The notes under the pieces were generated by a model. That model was not told where the DNA came from. It searched no databases and worked only from the letters and a program-made list of their open reading frames with translations. Source: Candidatus Cloacimonadota bacterium (GTDB lineage Bacteria; Cloacimonadota; Cloacimonadia; JGIOTU-2). From it: DNA of 9,146 nt. Positions 106 to 8,227 of this stretch are shown here, piece by piece. The number at the start of each line of letters is the position of its first letter. The first letter of the stretch is position 1. The stretch lies in assembly GCA_016932035.1 (NCBI GenBank), contig JAFGDR010000038.1, forward strand, positions 1 through 9,146, read 5' to 3'. The position numbers were made by a program, and so were the translations under genes.

Positions 106-1749
106 TTATTTCTCATGTTTTTTAACCCCGATCACCTCCACATCATCCACCTCCCATGATGTCGCCTTTGATGGACTCGAGTTTGTATATTTGAATCCTA
201 TATGAACATCACTTGTAGCAAATTCAGAAATATCAATATATCCCGAATGCTTCCATTCATAATGACCTTCTGACAATAAAGCTTCAAGAGGATACCAAGT
301 ATAGTCCAATGAGTTTTTGCCTATTATATAATCTTTCGAAATGAATATTTCAAGACCTGGAGTAACATCAGAATAATTCTTTGCAGTTTCAAAACTAAGA
401 ATGATATCATGAAAATCATGTAAATTTAACGTCGGTGAAATCAACCAATCAACGCATGGTTCATCAGCTTTGAATCCACCCATTTTCATAAAATATCTTT
501 CTCCATATGAAGAATGATACCAGTCTTCATTTCCTGAAATACTATAGGTTGTCCAACCATCGGTTCCATCTTCAAATGAACTGTTTAGGATAATTTCTGC
601 ACCTGGGTCGATACCATGACCTTTCAGTATAATTGAGTTTTCTTTTGAACTATTAGTATAAACAAGAAGTGCATCTTCATAATCTATCTTATCCGAAGGT
701 TCGAAGTATATTAACAACTCTTCGTTGAGGAAGCCATTTTCTGGCGTGAAATGGCATTGTGTAATTTTGGAATTATCTTTCTTAGTTGAAAAAAAGAATG
801 GAGCTTCAACTGAGACCATGACATCATCTTCAAGATTATATCCACTCACAACGAGTTTTATCGGATAAGACTGAATGCCGGTTTTCTGATTTCCAAAACG
901 CAACTCCAGTTCCGATATATTTACAGTAGGATCCAGTTCAGGTTTACCCCATATTTCAGTTACGAACTCTGGATGATCAATAAACGGATTTCGATTGTGC
1001 TGATAAGAGTAAATCACATCATTTCTATGCCGTTCTTGCTCGCTGACCGGGTCAAGCTCGTGCCACAGCAAGAGTGTCGACAGCTTACCGAACCTTGGTC
1101 CATAGGTTCCGGTCTTATCAAGAAGTTCGAGATCATACGTGTCATTATCGCCTTCGTATCGAACGACCATGTAGAAGAGCATCCTGGCAACGTCGCCTTT
1201 TACTCTATCCGGGGGTTCCCATGAATCAAAATCAAAAAAACAGCCATCAACCTCATCAAATGAATAACCACCCCAGTCAAAGTCACGGTTACCCCGAGCG
1301 CCATTCACACTGCGATCTGCAGGTCGTAGATGATGAACATCTGTATATGCAGTATCCGCCATGTTCGGAAAGCCATGGGACTTTGCCCACACATGTTCCC
1401 TGTTCCACGAATCGTCATGCGAGATTCCATACTCTATCATGTAGTTAAATTCGTCGCCATGATCCCTGAATTCAGCATTCTGAGAACGTCCAGAGTAGAA
1501 TAGGATAATGTTACCAGGATTCTCAAGATCAGCATCAGCTTCGATCATGATATCTTTTGTCGCTACCGTTGAATCACTAAAATACGGATACATGACATGA
1601 CCTTTTATAAGATCGTGTAAAGCAGACTTAAGTTCTTCTCCTTTCAGCAATGCCACTTCTTCATAATATTCATCAATAGGTATCGGTATAAAAGCATTCA
1701 GAAAGGAGCAAATGGAAACAAGCATTATTATGAAAATTGTTTTTTTCAT
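106..1749 (-). CDS. Secreted endonuclease I family nuclease with Ig-like and choice-of-anchor J domains
   Basis: This is an exported non-specific nuclease, probably used to degrade extracellular DNA. Counting from a GTG at 1755, residues 1-21 form a Sec signal peptide (MKKTIFIIMLVSICSFLNA). An endonuclease I domain spans about 35-270, with the motif WNREHVWAKSHGFP at 117-130. E120 and H121 match the Glu-His metal/general-base pair of Vvn/EndA nucleases, and N156 in GNRDFDWGG is the likely second metal ligand. ERHRNDVIYSYQHNRNPFIDHPEF closes the domain, as is usual. Residues 275-383 resemble the Ig-like module often following this domain. Residues 388-543 (FEDGTDGW, DWLISP, SFETA, WEVDDVEV) match choice-of-anchor J (MAM-like). 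No C-terminal sorting tail or LPXTG motif is visible. ATG 1749 is chosen because AGGTGAT at 1751-1757 spaces best to it; ATG 1752 or GTG 1755 are possible. The gene is probably coupled to the lipoprotein gene upstream. Confidence 0.93.
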   Translation of the reverse strand: MKKTIFIIMLVSICSFLNAFIPIPIDEYYEEVALLKGEELKSALHDLIKGHVMYPYFSDSTVATKDIMIEADADLENPGNIILFYSGRSQNAEFRDHGDEFNYMIEYGISHDDSWNREHVWAKSHGFPNMADTAYTDVHHLRPADRSVNGARGNRDFDWGGYSFDEVDGCFFDFDSWEPPDRVKGDVARMLFYMVVRYEGDNDTYDLELLDKTGTYGPRFGKLSTLLLWHELDPVSEQERHRNDVIYSYQHNRNPFIDHPEFVTEIWGKPELDPTVNISELELRFGNQKTGIQSYPIKLVVSGYNLEDDVMVSVEAPFFFSTKKDNSKITQCHFTPENGFLNEELLIYFEPSDKIDYEDALLVYTNSSKENSIILKGHGIDPGAEIILNSSFEDGTDGWTTYSISGNEDWYHSSYGERYFMKMGGFKADEPCVDWLISPTLNLHDFHDIILSFETAKNYSDVTPGLEIFISKDYIIGKNSLDYTWYPLEALLSEGHYEWKHSGYIDISEFATSDVHIGFKYTNSSPSKATSWEVDDVEVIGVKKHEK

Positions 1750-1750
1750 C

Positions 1751-1757
1751 ATCACCT
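1751..1757 (-). promoter_or_regulatory. Ribosome binding site overlapping the upstream stop codon
   Basis: AGGTGAT on the minus strand is complementary to the ATCACCT part of a typical 16S rRNA 3' end. It overlaps the TAG stop (1756-1758) of the lipoprotein gene and the GTG/ATG/ATG start triplets of the nuclease gene. This favours ATG 1749 as the nuclease start. It also implies that ribosomes finishing the lipoprotein can re-initiate at the nuclease. Confidence 0.6.
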
Positions 1758-2784
1758 ACGGTCTTCTTACAAATCCAAGAATAGTGGATGGAAATTTATC
1801 AGTTACAATAATGAATCCCTCGTCACCATAACGGACAATACCTTCCCAGTTCCTAGAATTATCATCATCGATCAATTCGATTTGTATTGGTGGTTGTTTA
1901 ACAAGAGTAATACCCTTTGGTGAGTAGTGGAACTCCAACAAGCGTTCGACTGTTTTATATTTCATGTGTGTCTCACCCTTCCCAAAACTTTTAGAAATCG
2001 GATCATCCGGATCATAGTTTTTACCATAATCGCCTGACCACATATAGTTTATTACCCAGAAATTGTCATCTTCATCAAGCTGTGTAGCATCGGTAATCCT
2101 ATATTCGACATAGGGTATTGTTAAAGAATCAATAAGATTTAGAGAATGATCAAACACATAAGCATATGGTGTATTCTTTAGCACCATACTGTTCCACTCA
2201 TAAACAGTAATTACTCTATCCGGGGTTACAATAATTGTTTCATCTGTTGCATTGCCTACTGATGCACGAGGAGGTAATTCTACTCGCTCATCTATGTTGA
2301 TATTGATCGTCTTCATATCACCTGAAATAGTTCCTTTACAGAGATAACCCATCATTTTATCGGGACTCGATTCTACAGTAAAAAACACAGAATTCCCATA
2401 AAAAGCAAGTGCTTCAAATCCTTCGTAACCATCTATGATATCTTTCAATCCGGGAGCGTTCAGACTTATCGGCATTGGAGTTATCGGTGTATTGGGAACT
2501 TCGTTCAGATATTCAGCAATCTTAGCCTTTGGAATAGCAAACAACGAGCCGTCATATTCCGAAGGAAAAATATGTGGATACTGTGGAAGGAGGATAAGAT
2601 AATCGTTATACCACGCAAGCCCGGAAATTTCAGCCTTAGGCTCAGAGATCTCACCATTCATCGTGATATATTGGACTTTGACTTCTTCTGGTATAGATGG
2701 TTGCTGAGGTTGCTCAAGATGATGTACTGTTGCACATGCAACAAGGAACAGCATGCACCCTAATATCATCAATTTTGTTTTCAT
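1756..2784 (-). CDS. Lipoprotein, probable beta-propeller (phytase-like/SdiA-regulated-like)
   Basis: This 342-residue lipoprotein begins MKTKLMILGCMLFLVAC, with a clean lipobox (LVAC, lipidated C17). Ala at +2 suggests outer-membrane rather than inner-membrane retention, if E. coli rules hold. The rest is rich in beta-strand patterns with three propeller-like turns: EISGLAW (53-59), GFEALAF (122-128) and NWEGIVR (312-318). The last is followed by EGFIIVTDKFPSTILGFV. This recurring E-G/A-[LI] pattern resembles phytase-like and SdiA-regulated beta-propellers, but I see no certain catalytic residues, so the activity is open. The reading frame runs upstream to 2883, but that N-terminus is basic and lacks a ribosome site. 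GAGG at 2792-2795, seven bases before ATG 2784, and the intact signal peptide fix the start. It is the first gene of a two-gene operon with the nuclease. Confidence 0.85.
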   Translation of the reverse strand: MKTKLMILGCMLFLVACATVHHLEQPQQPSIPEEVKVQYITMNGEISEPKAEISGLAWYNDYLILLPQYPHIFPSEYDGSLFAIPKAKIAEYLNEVPNTPITPMPISLNAPGLKDIIDGYEGFEALAFYGNSVFFTVESSPDKMMGYLCKGTISGDMKTININIDERVELPPRASVGNATDETIIVTPDRVITVYEWNSMVLKNTPYAYVFDHSLNLIDSLTIPYVEYRITDATQLDEDDNFWVINYMWSGDYGKNYDPDDPISKSFGKGETHMKYKTVERLLEFHYSPKGITLVKQPPIQIELIDDDNSRNWEGIVRYGDEGFIIVTDKFPSTILGFVRRP

Positions 2785-2791
2785 AATCATA

Positions 2792-2795
2792 CCTC
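2792..2795 (-). promoter_or_regulatory. Ribosome binding site deciding the lipoprotein start
   Basis: GAGG (within TCGAGGT) on the minus strand lies seven bases before ATG 2784. An ATG at 2790 sits only one base from it, too close to be the usual start. This supports a 342-residue protein beginning with a lipoprotein signal rather than a longer form starting at 2883. Confidence 0.6.
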
Positions 2796-2812
2796 GACCG
2801 AATATTTTTTTG

Positions 2813-2841
2813 AATGACAAATATCCGGTAAACTTTGTCAA
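2813..2841 (-). promoter_or_regulatory. Putative promoter of the lipoprotein-nuclease operon
   Basis: On the minus strand there is a perfect -35 hexamer TTGACA (2836-2841). With a 16-17 base spacer, the best -10 is TGTCAT or GTCATT, only a partial match to TATAAT. It lies 30-60 bases before the chosen start and overlaps both arms of the inverted repeat at 2815-2840. The weak -10 suggests dependence on an activator or a different start point. Confidence 0.35.
2815..2840. promoter_or_regulatory. Operator-like inverted repeat in the divergent promoter region
   Basis: TGACAAA (2815-2821) and TTTGTCA (2834-2840) form perfect 7-base arms around a 12-base spacer. The arm centres are 19 bases apart, close to two DNA turns. 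The repeat lies between two divergent genes and covers the -35 boxes proposed for both directions. That is a common layout for a dimeric regulator controlling both sides. No matching regulator gene is in the window. Confidence 0.45.
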
Positions 2842-2862
2842 ACTCCTTATGAAAATTATAAA
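2835..2862 (+). promoter_or_regulatory. Putative promoter of the GNAT gene
   Basis: TTGTCA (2835-2840), a 16-base spacer and TATAAA (2857-2862) form a good sigma-70-like promoter about 50 bases before the GNAT start. Its -35 box coincides with the right arm of the inverted repeat at 2815-2840, so binding there would be expected to affect it. Confidence 0.5.
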
Positions 2863-2914
2863 TTTCTTGCATTTTCTACTCATAACCCATAAGGATGCAT
2901 AAAAAGGATATTAT

Positions 2915-3364
2915 ATGAAAGTCTGCAGTCCGGTAACTCATGAGGATTTTCAAAAATATTATTTTCTTCGATGGAAAATGTTACGAAAACCGTGGGGACA
3001 AGCACTCGGCACTGAACGCGATGAACTCGATAAAACAAGCTTTCATGTTATGATTTGTGAACATGATAACAACCCCATCGGAGTAGCCCGTCTTCATTTC
3101 AATGATCCAGAAGAAGCACAGATCAGATATATGGCTGTTGACGATAAGCATCAGCACAAAGGTTTAGGAAGCCTGATGATGCAGTCGCTTGAGAAATTTG
3201 CAATGGAACATAATGCAAAATGTATTATCCTGAATGCGCGCGAAAATGCTGTGCCTTTCTATAAAAAAAACGGATACAGCATCATAGAAGAAAGTTATAT
3301 TCTTTTTGGTGAAATCCAGCATTTCAAGATGAAGAAAGAACTCAAACTACTAGACGAAACATAA
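2915..3364 (+). CDS. GNAT family N-acetyltransferase
   Basis: This 149-residue protein is a single GNAT domain that would move an acetyl group from acetyl-CoA to an amine; the substrate cannot be read from the sequence. Motif A is clear: IRYMAVDDKHQHKGLGSLMM (70-89), with the CoA-pyrophosphate loop Q80-x-x-G83-x-G85. Motif B follows as ILNARENAVPFYKKNGY (105-121), where Y116 sits where GNAT enzymes often have the general acid. The N-terminal stretch LRWKMLRKPWGQALGTERDELD (18-39) is typical of a subgroup of small GNATs. AAAAAGGA at 2901-2908, six bases before the ATG, supports the start. The protein has no signal peptide and should be cytosolic. It is divergent from the lipoprotein gene. The histidine kinase gene lies 61 bases downstream. 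Confidence 0.9.
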   Translation: MKVCSPVTHEDFQKYYFLRWKMLRKPWGQALGTERDELDKTSFHVMICEHDNNPIGVARLHFNDPEEAQIRYMAVDDKHQHKGLGSLMMQSLEKFAMEHNAKCIILNARENAVPFYKKNGYSIIEESYILFGEIQHFKMKKELKLLDET

Positions 3365-3425: not shown

Positions 3426-5474
3426 ATGAAAAAATTAATCTTACTTCTTTTGTTGATCCCGGTCTTTGTATGTGCGCAAGAATCAGTATCCGAACTCGAA
3501 CTACAGCTTCAAACAACAATAGGCACAGGCAAGGTTGATCTTCTGAATAAATTATCATTCAAAGTATTACAAGATTATCCTCAAAAATCACTCGATTATG
3601 CCGAACAGGCACTCACATTTGCGCTTCGTGATAATTACAAATTCGGCGAAGGAGCAGCACAAGAGAATATCGGTAATTACTATGAATTCAAACACGACCA
3701 ATATAAAGCGATCAACCATTTTAAAAAAGCTCGAGATGCCTATCTTCTAGCCAAAAATACTTCTGAACTTGCACGAATTCTAAATTATCTTGGGATTGCG
3801 TATGAAACTGCAAATGATCAAACTCAAGCACTCGGATATTATAAACAGTCCTATGATACATACAAAGATCTCGGTGATGTCTCCGGAATGGCGCTTCTTC
3901 TTACAAACATTGGAAGCGTATATGATACATATGGGAAATATGATAAAGCCCTCGAATATTATTTACGCAGCTTATACAGATACGAAAATATTGGAGATAA
4001 AGAGGGTGTCGCTTCATCTTTGAATAATATCGGGAATGTCTACCAGGCAATGCAGAATCTCGATAAAGCCCTTGAATATCTCAAAAAAGCAAAAGAAATG
4101 TATAGAAGTCTCGGCGATTCGGGTGGGGTTGCTATTGCAGTACATAATATCGGCATTATCTATCACGATCTTGGTGATTTTGAAAAAGCACTTCAGTATT
4201 ATACAGAATCTATGCAAACCGATCTCGAAAATGATAATAAACAAGGTATTTCAGCATCATACAATAATATTGCGATTATTTATGATGAGATGAATGACCT
4301 CTCTAAATCCCTCGATTATTATAAACGGTCACTTGCACTTTCTGAAGAAATAGATGATAAATATTCGATTGCAAATACAAATAACAATATGGGTTTCCTC
4401 TTTCTTAAAAAGAATGAGTATCAAAAGGCATATACACATTTCATTATTGGTCTGAGTATTGCACGTGATATTGCTGCGAAAGAATTGATCAAAGAGAGTT
4501 ATGATGGGCTCTCCCAGTATTATCGGTTAAACGGAGATTTTGAAAAATGTCTTGAATACAGAGAGCTTCATCAGACGATTAAAGATAGTATCTTCTCGGC
4601 AGATGCACGAAAGAGAATCTCTGATCTTGAGAATCAATATAATCTGGAAAACAAAGAACGTGAGATCAGTCTTCTTCAAAAAGAAAATGAAATAAAGATA
4701 TTGGAACTCAAACGACAAAAAAACCTAAGATATCTTTTCATCGCTATTCTGATCTTTCTGGTTTTTATTATTCTTCTTGTCTATTATGCATATAATACAA
4801 AACGTAAAATGACCAGTGGACTGCTTAACGAGATCGAGGAACGATATAAGGTTGAAGACCAACTAAAAAGTTCACTTAAAGAAAAAGATGTCATGCTGAA
4901 AGAAATCCATCATCGGGTGAAAAACAATATGCAGATCATATCCAGTCTGCTGAGTTTACAAACACGTTATATATCTGATGAAAAAGCACTTGATGTCTTT
5001 AATGACAGCCAGGAAAGAATCAGGTCAATGGCTCTGGTACATGAGAAACTCTATCGTTCTAATGACTTTTCAAGCATCGACTTTTCCGAGTATATCCATG
5101 ACCTTGTGAACAATATTCTCCGGCGTGAATATACGAACGTAGAAACAGCTATTGACGTTAAAGATGTTGAGATGGACATTAATAAAGCAATCCCCTGCGG
5201 TCTTATTATCAATGAGTTGATCATGAATGCGATCAAACATGCATTCCCGGATGACAGCGAGGGTACCATCGAGATCGTTATGCATCCTCAGGGTGATGAT
5301 TCGTATGTTCTTACGATTGCTGATGATGGAATCGGCTTACCCGAAGATATTGATTTTAAAAATACCACAACACTCGGCTTACAGCTTGTTTCGGGTTTGG
5401 TGCGTCAATTGCAAGGAAATATTGACGTTGATAAAACTAAGGGCACAAAGTTTACCATAATTTTTCCAAAATAA
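3426..5474 (+). CDS. TPR-containing sensor histidine kinase (HisKA_2 class)
   Basis: This 682-residue membrane kinase should autophosphorylate on His and pass phosphate to a response regulator. A signal peptide (1-18, MKKLILLLLLIPVFVCAQ) is followed by about eight TPR units (81-380). Each begins with an NIGxxY-like motif at exact 40-residue steps: 81, 121, 161, 201, 241, 281, 321, 361. A coiled coil spans about 392-435 and one membrane helix about 436-457. HisKA_2 follows, with EIHHRVKNNMQIISSLLSLQ (493-512); H496 is the likely phospho-acceptor, H495 the alternative. The HATPase domain has an N box (NELIMNAIKHAF, 596-607), G1 DDGIGLP (633-639) and G2 TLGLQLV (649-655). The topology places the TPRs in the periplasm. 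There is no receiver domain. The ATG lacks a strong ribosome site, but the signal peptide makes this start convincing. The DctB-like sensor gene follows 17 bases later. Confidence 0.92.
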   Translation: MKKLILLLLLIPVFVCAQESVSELELQLQTTIGTGKVDLLNKLSFKVLQDYPQKSLDYAEQALTFALRDNYKFGEGAAQENIGNYYEFKHDQYKAINHFKKARDAYLLAKNTSELARILNYLGIAYETANDQTQALGYYKQSYDTYKDLGDVSGMALLLTNIGSVYDTYGKYDKALEYYLRSLYRYENIGDKEGVASSLNNIGNVYQAMQNLDKALEYLKKAKEMYRSLGDSGGVAIAVHNIGIIYHDLGDFEKALQYYTESMQTDLENDNKQGISASYNNIAIIYDEMNDLSKSLDYYKRSLALSEEIDDKYSIANTNNNMGFLFLKKNEYQKAYTHFIIGLSIARDIAAKELIKESYDGLSQYYRLNGDFEKCLEYRELHQTIKDSIFSADARKRISDLENQYNLENKEREISLLQKENEIKILELKRQKNLRYLFIAILIFLVFIILLVYYAYNTKRKMTSGLLNEIEERYKVEDQLKSSLKEKDVMLKEIHHRVKNNMQIISSLLSLQTRYISDEKALDVFNDSQERIRSMALVHEKLYRSNDFSSIDFSEYIHDLVNNILRREYTNVETAIDVKDVEMDINKAIPCGLIINELIMNAIKHAFPDDSEGTIEIVMHPQGDDSYVLTIADDGIGLPEDIDFKNTTTLGLQLVSGLVRQLQGNIDVDKTKGTKFTIIFPK

Positions 5475-5481
5475 AATTTTT

Positions 5482-5487
5482 GAGGAG
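5482..5487 (+). promoter_or_regulatory. Strong ribosome binding site of the Cache sensor gene
   Basis: GAGGAG lies five bases before ATG 5493 in the short gap after the kinase stop. It contrasts with the kinase gene, which has no comparable site, and suggests the sensor is translated at a higher rate than the kinase from the same message. Confidence 0.6.
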
Positions 5488-5492
5488 ACTCG

Positions 5493-6476
5493 ATGTTTAC
5501 TATGATGGATTATCAACAAGATCAGAATATGAACTGGAAAGCCACGTTTCTGGTGATCATTGGTGTGCTTTTTATTTCACTTGTTTTTTTTGGTATTATG
5601 GCTTATAGAAGTGGACTCGTAAAGGATGCCTTGCAAACCGATACTGAAATAGCAAAAGAAGTTTTGGGACAGACAATTCAGGAAGTTAAAGATGCTACAC
5701 ATTTCATAGCAGAACATCCAATGATCCAGGAATGGAATGTTTCCCCCAACCTCGTGAACGATCATGACATACTCATCGTCCTTAACACGATCAAATACAT
5801 GCTCAATGCGACAAATGTGTATATCATGGATGTTGACGGAAATGTACTTGTTTGCACACCTCCATGTGATTATATGCTGACAGGTAAAAACCTGAACTTC
5901 CGTCCTTATTTCCAGCAGTCTATCCAGGGAGTTGAATGTGTCTATCCTGCCTTGAGTGTAACCGATCAAGAACGCGGACTCTACTTTAGCGCACCGATTC
6001 ATTCCAATAATATCGGTAATCCAGTAGGTGTTGTAGTCATTACGCTTGCTCTTGATCGATTCGATAAAGTGCTGAAAAATTATACGAACGGCATCGTTGC
6101 CGGTATTATTTCACCGGAAGGGATCATCTTCTCTTCAACAGAAAAATCATGGCTGTTTAAAAGCATTAAACCTCTCACCGTTGATGAGCGTAATAAGTTA
6201 CGAGCAACTCAGCAATTCGCAGAAGAGCCCCTTGAACCACTTGGGATTTCTATTTCAGATTCACGAGTAAAATATAAAGACGAATCATACATTCTTGTAA
6301 GGGATGATATTGCAATACCCGATTGGCAGATCTTTGCACTGCAGAAAACAACAAACCTTCATCCTGTTCCCCCATTTATTATGTCCAGCATACTCTTTAT
6401 CATATTTGGCATCTCATACATCATTCTTGCAATTGTCTATGGGAAAGAGAAAAAAGCCCAGAAGGAGAAAATGTAA
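5493..6476 (+). CDS. Membrane-anchored DctB-like double-Cache sensor without output domain
   Basis: This 327-residue protein has a membrane helix at about 16-37, an extracytoplasmic domain at 38-290, a second helix at about 294-316, and an 11-residue basic tail. The outer domain matches the dCache fold of DctB-type sensors: VYIMDVDGNVLV (109-120), GKNLNFRPYFQQSIQG (131-146, with the ligand-pocket motif FRPYF), LYFSAPI (163-169), GVVVITLALDRFDK (179-192), and a second lobe with SPEGIIFSSTEKSWLFKSIKPL (207-228). In DctB, a kinase follows the second helix; here the protein ends. No kinase, GGDEF, HAMP or chemoreceptor domain is present. The end looks natural: the peptidase ribosome site lies inside the last codons and the stop overlaps the next start. 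By inference, it may sense an organic acid or similar small ligand and signal through the kinase encoded 17 bases upstream. Confidence 0.85.
   Translation: MFTMMDYQQDQNMNWKATFLVIIGVLFISLVFFGIMAYRSGLVKDALQTDTEIAKEVLGQTIQEVKDATHFIAEHPMIQEWNVSPNLVNDHDILIVLNTIKYMLNATNVYIMDVDGNVLVCTPPCDYMLTGKNLNFRPYFQQSIQGVECVYPALSVTDQERGLYFSAPIHSNNIGNPVGVVVITLALDRFDKVLKNYTNGIVAGIISPEGIIFSSTEKSWLFKSIKPLTVDERNKLRATQQFAEEPLEPLGISISDSRVKYKDESYILVRDDIAIPDWQIFALQKTTNLHPVPPFIMSSILFIIFGISYIILAIVYGKEKKAQKEKM
6462..6467 (+). promoter_or_regulatory. Ribosome binding site deciding the M42 peptidase start
   Basis: AAGGAG lies eight bases before ATG 6476, inside the last codons of the sensor gene. Together with the TAATG stop/start overlap, it fixes the peptidase start at 6476. 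The same reading frame is open back to 6323, but that part is only a shadow of the sensor gene. Confidence 0.7.
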
Positions 6477-7540
6477 TGAACAAACAATCCCTGAAGTTCC
6501 TCGAAACTTTGATGAACCTCCCCTCCCCATCAGGTTATGAAAAAAAAGTGCGTCAGGCGTGGCTTGATGAAATGAAGAAATTTTCCGACGAAATAAAAAG
6601 CGATGTCCATGGCAATGCAATCGCTGTTGTTAATCCCGACAAGGTTCCACGTATCATGCTTGCAGGTCATATGGACGAACTTGGTTTTCAGGTCGGATTT
6701 ATTAGTGAAAAAGGTTTTATTTATTTTAACAGGTTGGGCGGTTTTGATATCGGTATCATACCCGGAAGAAAAGTCCGTATCCACACACGAAAAGGCGATA
6801 TACTTGGCGTTGTAGGAAAAAAAGCGATCCACTTATTCGATAGCGAAGATCGTGAAAAAGTACCGAAACCCCATCAGTTGTATATCGATATTGGTGCTAA
6901 AGATAAAAAAGAAGCACAAAAGCTTGTGGAGATCGGCGATCCGATAACCTATGATACGAACTTTGAACAACTCAGAAAAGACCTTTACGTTTCACGCGGT
7001 TTCGATGATAAGATCGGTGCATTCATTACCGCAGAAGTAATGAAGAATGTATTCAAGCAAAAGAAGAATTTCAAGGCTTCTCTATACAGTGTTGCAACCG
7101 TTCAGGAAGAGGTCGGACTTCGTGGAGCAAAGACCTCCGCCTTCGGTATCGATCCTGATATTGGAATTGCCCTTGATGTAACTCATGCAACCGACACACC
7201 CGACGTCGATCAGAAAAAGGTTGGAGAGATCGGGCTTGGCGACGGTGCGCCTATTGTCCGCGGTCCAAACATCAATCATAAAGTTTTCGATATGCTTGTC
7301 GATAGCGCAAAAAAACTCAAGGTCAAGTACCAGATCGAAGCTGCTGCCCGACCAACCGGCACCGATGCAAATGTCATCCAGATTACTCGTGCAGGCGTGG
7401 CAACAGGTCTGATAGCAATCCCCTGCCGCTATATGCATACATACACAGAAGTGATTTCAATGGATGATGTGGAAAGTGCCATCAGCATTTTAACCGAATT
7501 CTGCATGCAGGTAGATGACTCAATAAATTTTATTGAATAG
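6476..7540 (+). CDS. M42 family metallo-aminopeptidase (TET/glutamyl aminopeptidase type)
   Basis: This 354-residue cytosolic enzyme has the full M42 layout and usual length. It should remove N-terminal residues from short peptides, probably as a large TET-type oligomer. The di-metal site is complete: H65 and D67 in AGHMDELGF (63-71), D177/D178 in SRGFDDKIGAF, the catalytic E211/E212 in VQEEVGLRGA, D234 in ALDVTHATDTP, and H321 in RYMHTYTEV. The N-terminal FLETLMNLPSPSGYE (8-22) is also typical. Inner specificity cannot be read, and older annotations of this family as endoglucanase are unreliable. The start at 6476 overlaps the sensor stop by one base (TAATG) with AAGGAG eight bases upstream, so it is translationally coupled. 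A terminator follows 20 bases after the stop. The context suggests a peptide-degrading step linked to the upstream sensor pair, but this is inference. Confidence 0.94.
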   Translation: MNKQSLKFLETLMNLPSPSGYEKKVRQAWLDEMKKFSDEIKSDVHGNAIAVVNPDKVPRIMLAGHMDELGFQVGFISEKGFIYFNRLGGFDIGIIPGRKVRIHTRKGDILGVVGKKAIHLFDSEDREKVPKPHQLYIDIGAKDKKEAQKLVEIGDPITYDTNFEQLRKDLYVSRGFDDKIGAFITAEVMKNVFKQKKNFKASLYSVATVQEEVGLRGAKTSAFGIDPDIGIALDVTHATDTPDVDQKKVGEIGLGDGAPIVRGPNINHKVFDMLVDSAKKLKVKYQIEAAARPTGTDANVIQITRAGVATGLIAIPCRYMHTYTEVISMDDVESAISILTEFCMQVDDSINFIE

Positions 7541-7560
7541 AATTTCTACAAAATTTCATA

Positions 7561-7592
7561 AACCTCTCTGTTCCTGCAGGGAGGTTTTTTTT
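7561..7592 (+). terminator. Rho-independent terminator after the M42 peptidase gene
   Basis: AACCTCTCTG (7561-7570) pairs with CAGGGAGGTT (7577-7586), forming a 10 bp stem with one T-G wobble and a 6-base loop (TTCCTG). It runs directly into eight T residues (7585-7592). It starts 20 bases after the peptidase stop, so it ends the kinase-sensor-peptidase transcript and separates it from the Nudix unit. Confidence 0.92.
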
Positions 7593-7599
7593 CATATTC

Positions 7600-7629
7600 T
7601 TGACATGATGAATATGCATATTTTATGAA
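7600..7629 (+). promoter_or_regulatory. Putative promoter of the Nudix operon
   Basis: TTGACA (7600-7605) is followed after 18 bases by TATGAA (7624-7629), a fair match to TATAAT. It starts eight bases beyond the terminator T run and about 25-55 bases before the Nudix start, a good place for the promoter of a new transcription unit. Confidence 0.5.
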
Positions 7630-7654
7630 TTTAAGATCAAAATAAAGAAGTCCT

Positions 7655-8227
7655 ATGTACGGAAAATCTCTAATAGAACAGCTTACAGTATATACGCCCT
7701 TCGATATACAGGAGCGAGCGAAGCACCACCAAATGCTGTCATTCCTTTCTCGAAATGAGAATGGTTTTCATAACAAAAACCTTCCGGGGCATGTGACAGG
7801 TTCTGCATGGATTCTTGATTCATCACGAAAAAAAGTATTGATGACTCATCATATTAAACTAGAAAAGTGGCTACAACTTGGAGGACATGCAGACGGTTCG
7901 GGCGATATCCTCAGCGTCGCACTCCGGGAAGCAGAAGAAGAATCCGGACTTCATTCGGTAAAACCACTCAGTTTCTACATTTTTGATGTGGACGTGCATG
8001 CGATCCCGGAACGAAAGAATTTTCCCAATCACTTTCATTATGATGTGCGATTTCTCTTTGATGCTGATGAGACAGAACCCTTCCGTGTTTCAGACGAATC
8101 ATTTAATTTACAATGGATAAATATCGAGGATGTACGCAGGTTCAATGACGAGGATTCCATTCTACGGCTCGTCGAGAAGTCAGAGACCATGAACCTTCTG
8201 CGTTTCCTTGAAAGCGGTTACTGGTAA
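7655..8227 (+). CDS. Nudix hydrolase with a variant Nudix box
   Basis: This 190-residue cytosolic protein should hydrolyse a nucleoside diphosphate linked to another group; the substrate is unknown. The Nudix box runs from G77 to L99 (GHADGSGDILSVALREAEEESGL). The REAEEESGL core with its metal-binding Glu residues is intact, but the position usually held by the first Glu (G-x5-E) is G83. Preceding signatures PGHVTGSAWILD (44-55) and VLMTHHIKLEKWLQLGGH (61-78) place it in a recognisable subgroup with an HH-KL-WLQ-GGH signature, related to MutT-like enzymes. An N-terminal helical extension of about 45 residues precedes the Nudix fold. The start has only a weak purine-rich site (AAAGAAG, 7644-7650). 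The gene leads a new transcription unit after the terminator, with the exported protein gene 19 bases downstream. Confidence 0.92.
   Translation: MYGKSLIEQLTVYTPFDIQERAKHHQMLSFLSRNENGFHNKNLPGHVTGSAWILDSSRKKVLMTHHIKLEKWLQLGGHADGSGDILSVALREAEEESGLHSVKPLSFYIFDVDVHAIPERKNFPNHFHYDVRFLFDADETEPFRVSDESFNLQWINIEDVRRFNDEDSILRLVEKSETMNLLRFLESGYW

Follow-up and report, generated by a model that had tools for sequence, protein, structure and literature searches.

A gene for a sensor kinase with no ligand-binding domain, followed directly by a gene for a ligand-binding receptor with no kinase, raises the question of whether the two proteins work together as a single receptor. Such a pair lies at the center of a 9,146-nucleotide stretch of DNA (the window), contig 38 of a Candidatus Cloacimonadota MAG of 2.44 Mb that is 95% complete (Table 1). 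A preliminary description had proposed a two-protein receptor on the strength of this arrangement, with the genes 17 bases apart; the adjacency holds, while the gap is 18 nt (5475-5492). The relatives compared here are likewise Candidatus Cloacimonadota MAGs, namely eight genomes of the same genus (G000-G007) and 124 genomes across the phylum.

Table 1. Genes and other features of the window.
Feature	Position	Strand	Basis
Endonuclease I	106-1755	-	gene order of window
Lipoprotein gene	1756-2883	-	gene order of window
GNAT acetyltransferase, first gene of genus-specific insert	2915-3364	+	PF00583, E 1e-18
TPR-TM-HisKA_2-HATPase sensor kinase, 682 aa	3426-5474	+	domain matches and TM prediction
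Conserved DNA element within kinase 3' end	5406-5464	+	codon identity between species
Stand-alone TM-dCache-TM receptor (sensor), 327 aa, DctB-like distal Cache	5493-6476	+	PF02743
M42-family aminopeptidase	6476-7540	+	PF05343, E 4.3e-88
Nudix gene	7655-8227		
Two further ORFs			without family matches

Anatomy and relatives of the two proteins

The kinase had been described as a TPR region, one membrane helix and a HisKA_2/HATPase core lacking any small-molecule sensor domain, and both domain search and TM prediction bear this out. Behind a hydrophobic N-terminus (residues 4-22, a signal peptide), one chain carries the periplasmic TPR region (TPR_12, E 2.5e-45), a single TM helix (predicted at 437-455, taken as ~437-460), HisKA_2 (E 1e-30) and HATPase_c (E 5.7e-14); domain search finds neither a Cache nor a PAS domain in the protein. 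This order of signal peptide, TPRs, coiled coil, TM, HisKA_2 and HATPase is that of the TPR-TM-HisKA_2 sensor kinases, of which FimS is one NCBIfam relative. The architecture is common in the phylum, usually beside receiver-domain proteins and without a Cache partner. Matches to it occur in 56 of 59 relatives and at 22 places in this genome, some of which are not full TPR kinases. Where neighbors were sampled, eight of ten relatives adjoin a receiver-domain protein and none adjoins a Cache protein, so that an outside Cache domain appears unnecessary for a complete kinase of this type. The window kinase, on the other hand, does adjoin a Cache protein, and no receiver-domain protein stands next to it among the domain matches across the window.

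The sensor was correctly recognized as a DctB-like dCache protein with two membrane helices and no kinase, as domain, TM and solved-structure matches all confirm. Its TM helices, near residues 19-37 and 296-314, accompany a dCache_1 domain (PF02743, E 1.7e-15), and domain search of the whole protein finds no kinase or other output domain. Among solved structures, it comes closest to the sensor domains of DctB (3by9, 3e4o and 2zbb; profile E 7.1e-29 for 3by9). With the DctB sensor kinases, whose dCache domains bind C4-dicarboxylates (PDB 3by9, 3e4o), the protein shares the TM-dCache-TM layout and an FRxYF segment, a clear sequence match running through the distal Cache and into part of the proximal one; unlike DctB, it has no coiled coil, HisKA or HATPase after TM2, only a tail of ~10 residues. 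An AlphaFold2 model of the sensor built from four sequences reached a pLDDT of 37.5 and a pTM of 0.21.

Within the phylum, the sensor has two more distant relatives, in G045 (32% identity) and G043 (31%). Each forms the N-terminal portion of a kinase made as one chain, dCache-HisKA-HATPase-REC-REC-Hpt in the first and dCache-HATPase in the second, the cores of which differ from that of the window kinase. It is thus misleading to say, as had been said, that each protein lacks what the other has: TPR-TM-HisKA_2 kinases are common without a Cache partner, and where a relative of the sensor forms one chain with a kinase, the core is a different one. Fission of one ancestral kinase can be rejected on the same grounds, since the relatives of the sensor carry other cores and the neighbors of TPR kinase relatives are not Cache proteins. 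With the sensor's relatives being halves of one-chain kinases and TPR kinases adjoining receivers, the pair points to recruitment, rather than to a split chain.

Every one of the eight genomes in the genus has a single, intact copy of the sensor, at 61-75% identity to that of the window, and no stand-alone counterpart is found in the rest of the 124 phylum genomes. Pairwise dN/dS is about 0.06-0.23, and many TM and pocket residues are invariant. Identity is higher in TM1 (0.84) and TM2 (0.86) than in the Cache domain (about 0.72), and such unusually conserved membrane helices suggest a membrane-embedded partner or a dimer.

The G007 sensor (L051:7611-8594) departs from this pattern in its distal Cache (residues ~106-205), which has been swapped for a divergent version. 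This segment is 57-73% identical to close relatives, as against 80-100% in most flanking windows; it is closer to G003 and, by eye, resembles the pocket of the G045 hybrid kinase. It has the look of a recombinational swap of the ligand pocket, though it may also be a MAG chimera. No matching change is seen in the G007 kinase, which favors an active ligand-binding module and speaks weakly against tight matching between the TPRs and the distal Cache.

Two other Cache proteins without a kinase were noted in the genus. One, of 418 aa with one TM, is encoded on contig 40 of G000 directly before a REC-PAS-GAF-PAS-GGDEF protein (L120:4153-5409 and 5446-7986), and G001, G004 and G005 encode it too, again next to a similar gene. 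The other, on contig 54 of G000 (L116:332-1804), is a secreted family-3 solute-binding/dCache fusion with no output domain.

A probable single insertion and two kinase losses

In G012, of genus g6, the lipoprotein and M42 genes are adjacent and divergent; in the genus of G000-G007, the GNAT, kinase and sensor genes lie between them. Kinase and sensor thus probably arrived in one insert in the ancestor of the genus, and nothing speaks more strongly for an original partnership than this shared arrival. Because it is conserved across species, their adjacency is no chance of one genome; it probably traces to a single ancestral insertion in one genus. M42 orthologues are conserved in other genera of the family, with no sensor alongside.

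The search for a conserved pair in related genomes came out both ways. An intact kinase orthologue (59-68% identity to the window kinase) lies beside the sensor in six of the eight genomes (G000, G002, G003, G004, G006 and G007), and a GNAT orthologue lies 5' of the kinase, or of its scar, in G002-G007. A suspected break in the G002 kinase, due to one TAA, was dismissed, as the C-terminus is merely two residues shorter. The kinase has been deleted in the other two genomes, and the sensor is kept in all eight. Neither G001 (96% complete) nor G005 (91%) has anything better than paralogues as a match to the kinase. What is left of the G001 kinase gene is its beginning, signal-peptide codons that now bear a frameshift and a TAA, running straight into about codon 627. 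The G005 deletion extends from the GNAT-kinase spacer to about codon 620, with a TTTTGA repeat at the junction. The two scars keep different parts of the gene, so that neither derives from the other, and in the gene tree each species groups with others still carrying the kinase; the deletions are therefore independent. Since the genomes are MAGs, assembly faults might conceivably account for both losses, although the frameshift and stop in one scar speak against this. Upstream of the sensor in G001 (L045), the GNAT gene too is cut down to a 3' remnant, a sign that this species is losing the GNAT-kinase part of the insert.

Having deleted the kinase, these two species retain a sensor that reads intact, and the sensor is thus probably not tied to the adjacent kinase as one receptor. 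It is also equally constrained with or without the kinase: nonsynonymous to synonymous counts are 31/57 on kinase-less branches and 40/76 on kinase-bearing ones (p = 1), with a neutral ratio of about 3.3. The kinase remnants, on the other hand, differ from their relatives mostly at synonymous sites (judged by eye); the deletions therefore appear recent, which makes survival of the sensor since then weak evidence that it functions free of the kinase.

A conserved element and the sensor-M42 unit

Of its two neighbors, the kinase and M42 genes, the sensor is more tightly coupled to the latter. Its stop codon overlaps the M42 start in the window (TAATG, 6474-6478), a detail absent from the preliminary description, and the sensor and M42 genes overlap by 1 or 8 nt in all eight genomes. 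Just upstream, within the 3' end of the kinase gene, lies a block conserved at the DNA level, composed of CAATTGCAAGGAAATRTTGACGT (5406-5428), 16 nt, and ACAAAGTTTACCATAATTTT (5445-5464). Across kinase codons 661-680, codon identity between species pairs at amino-acid-invariant positions is 0.96, against a mean of 0.55, a value reached in 0 of 5000 shuffles; the best windows in the sensor and M42 genes reach 0.78 and 0.76, with no comparable block in either. ACAAAGTTTACCATAATTTT occurs as one exact copy per genome, always just upstream of the sensor, and both blocks are retained in the G001 and G005 scars. RNA structure can be rejected as the cause, the single-sequence z score being -0.26, with neither covariation nor compensatory change, and no clear sigma-70 promoter was found in the element. 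Conserved as DNA and kept even in the scars, the element suggests that the sensor and M42 genes probably have their own control within the kinase gene; a cis-regulatory role is likely.

These observations make the case for one rival explanation, in which the sensor would function independently of the kinase, in association with M42 or with another process (for example, regulation of peptide use via an unlinked partner), the adjacency being a relic of insertion. The M42 overlap in every genome, the element retained ahead of the sensor-M42 unit, and the genus's other kinase-less Cache proteins, which adjoin other outputs (the GGDEF protein) or none, all fit. M42 orthologues in other genera nonetheless do without a sensor, and so can the enzyme; M42 enzymes, moreover, are cytoplasmic, and nothing obvious connects them to a Cache domain in the periplasm. 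We consider this explanation rather unlikely on balance.

We are slightly more doubtful still of a dedicated receptor, in which the Cache protein would be the obligate input of the TPR kinase, docking onto the TPRs or the TM helix, and kinase-less species would hold a doomed or rewired sensor. The parts of the two-protein proposal that stand are the ancestry of the pair, which six of eight genomes keep intact, with kinase and sensor in the same insert, and a sensor with very conserved TM helices but no output domain of its own; the youth of the deletions also helps. Its obligate, dedicated form is not supported, in view of two independent kinase losses against zero sensor losses, equal constraint on the kinase-less branches, a kinase family that works elsewhere without an adjacent Cache partner, and a replaced distal Cache in G007 that the kinase of that genome does not mirror. 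A further reading, that of a truncated kinase in decay and without function, might be suggested by the missing output domain when the sensor is set beside its one-chain relatives; it is contradicted by purifying selection on a protein intact in 8/8 genomes and can scarcely be credited.

Proposed facultative coupling and known systems

The best reading, to which we would give a probability of about 0.5, is that sensor and kinase are coupled facultatively. A GNAT/TPR-kinase/orphan-Cache cassette would have been inserted between the older, divergent lipoprotein and M42 genes in the ancestor of the genus, bringing in a Cache protein similar to the sensory half of DctB-like kinases made as one chain. 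The distal Cache of this protein may bind a small, probably carboxylate-like periplasmic ligand, by analogy with DctB, and binding would move the two conserved membrane helices. Lacking an output domain, the sensor must act on another membrane protein, so that output would pass through such a partner. The TPR kinase would be the likeliest partner where present, and yet dispensable, as persistence of the sensor where the kinase is deleted implies that a different kinase or some other partner can serve it. The sensor would be expressed with M42 from the putative element within the kinase 3' end. Counted against facultative coupling is that no alternative partner was identified. A bolder version, which we think improbable, is that a detached DctB-like dCache receptor acts in trans on the TM/TPR region of HisKA_2 kinases, switching among paralogues; one input subunit would then serve interchangeable kinase subunits.

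A conserved and constrained Cache receptor without an output domain indicates that input can stand alone, and the locus cautions that gene adjacency is not proof of a receptor complex. The two kinase-less species are natural knockouts, which makes the question of the partner directly testable.

A search of the literature gave no match for a stand-alone Cache protein with a TPR kinase. Accessory proteins of kinases have been reviewed (PMC8534201), and the comparable accessory-sensor or co-component systems are HbpS-SenS-SenR (PMC4991794) and VtrA/VtrC (PMC9214523). None of these examples joins a dCache subunit to a TPR kinase, and the interaction in such systems has been demonstrated, whereas the pair seen in the window has lost its kinase in two species. 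Like the window pair, however, these systems keep input and output of the signal on different chains, and the VtrA and VtrC genes are adjacent, as are the kinase and sensor genes here.
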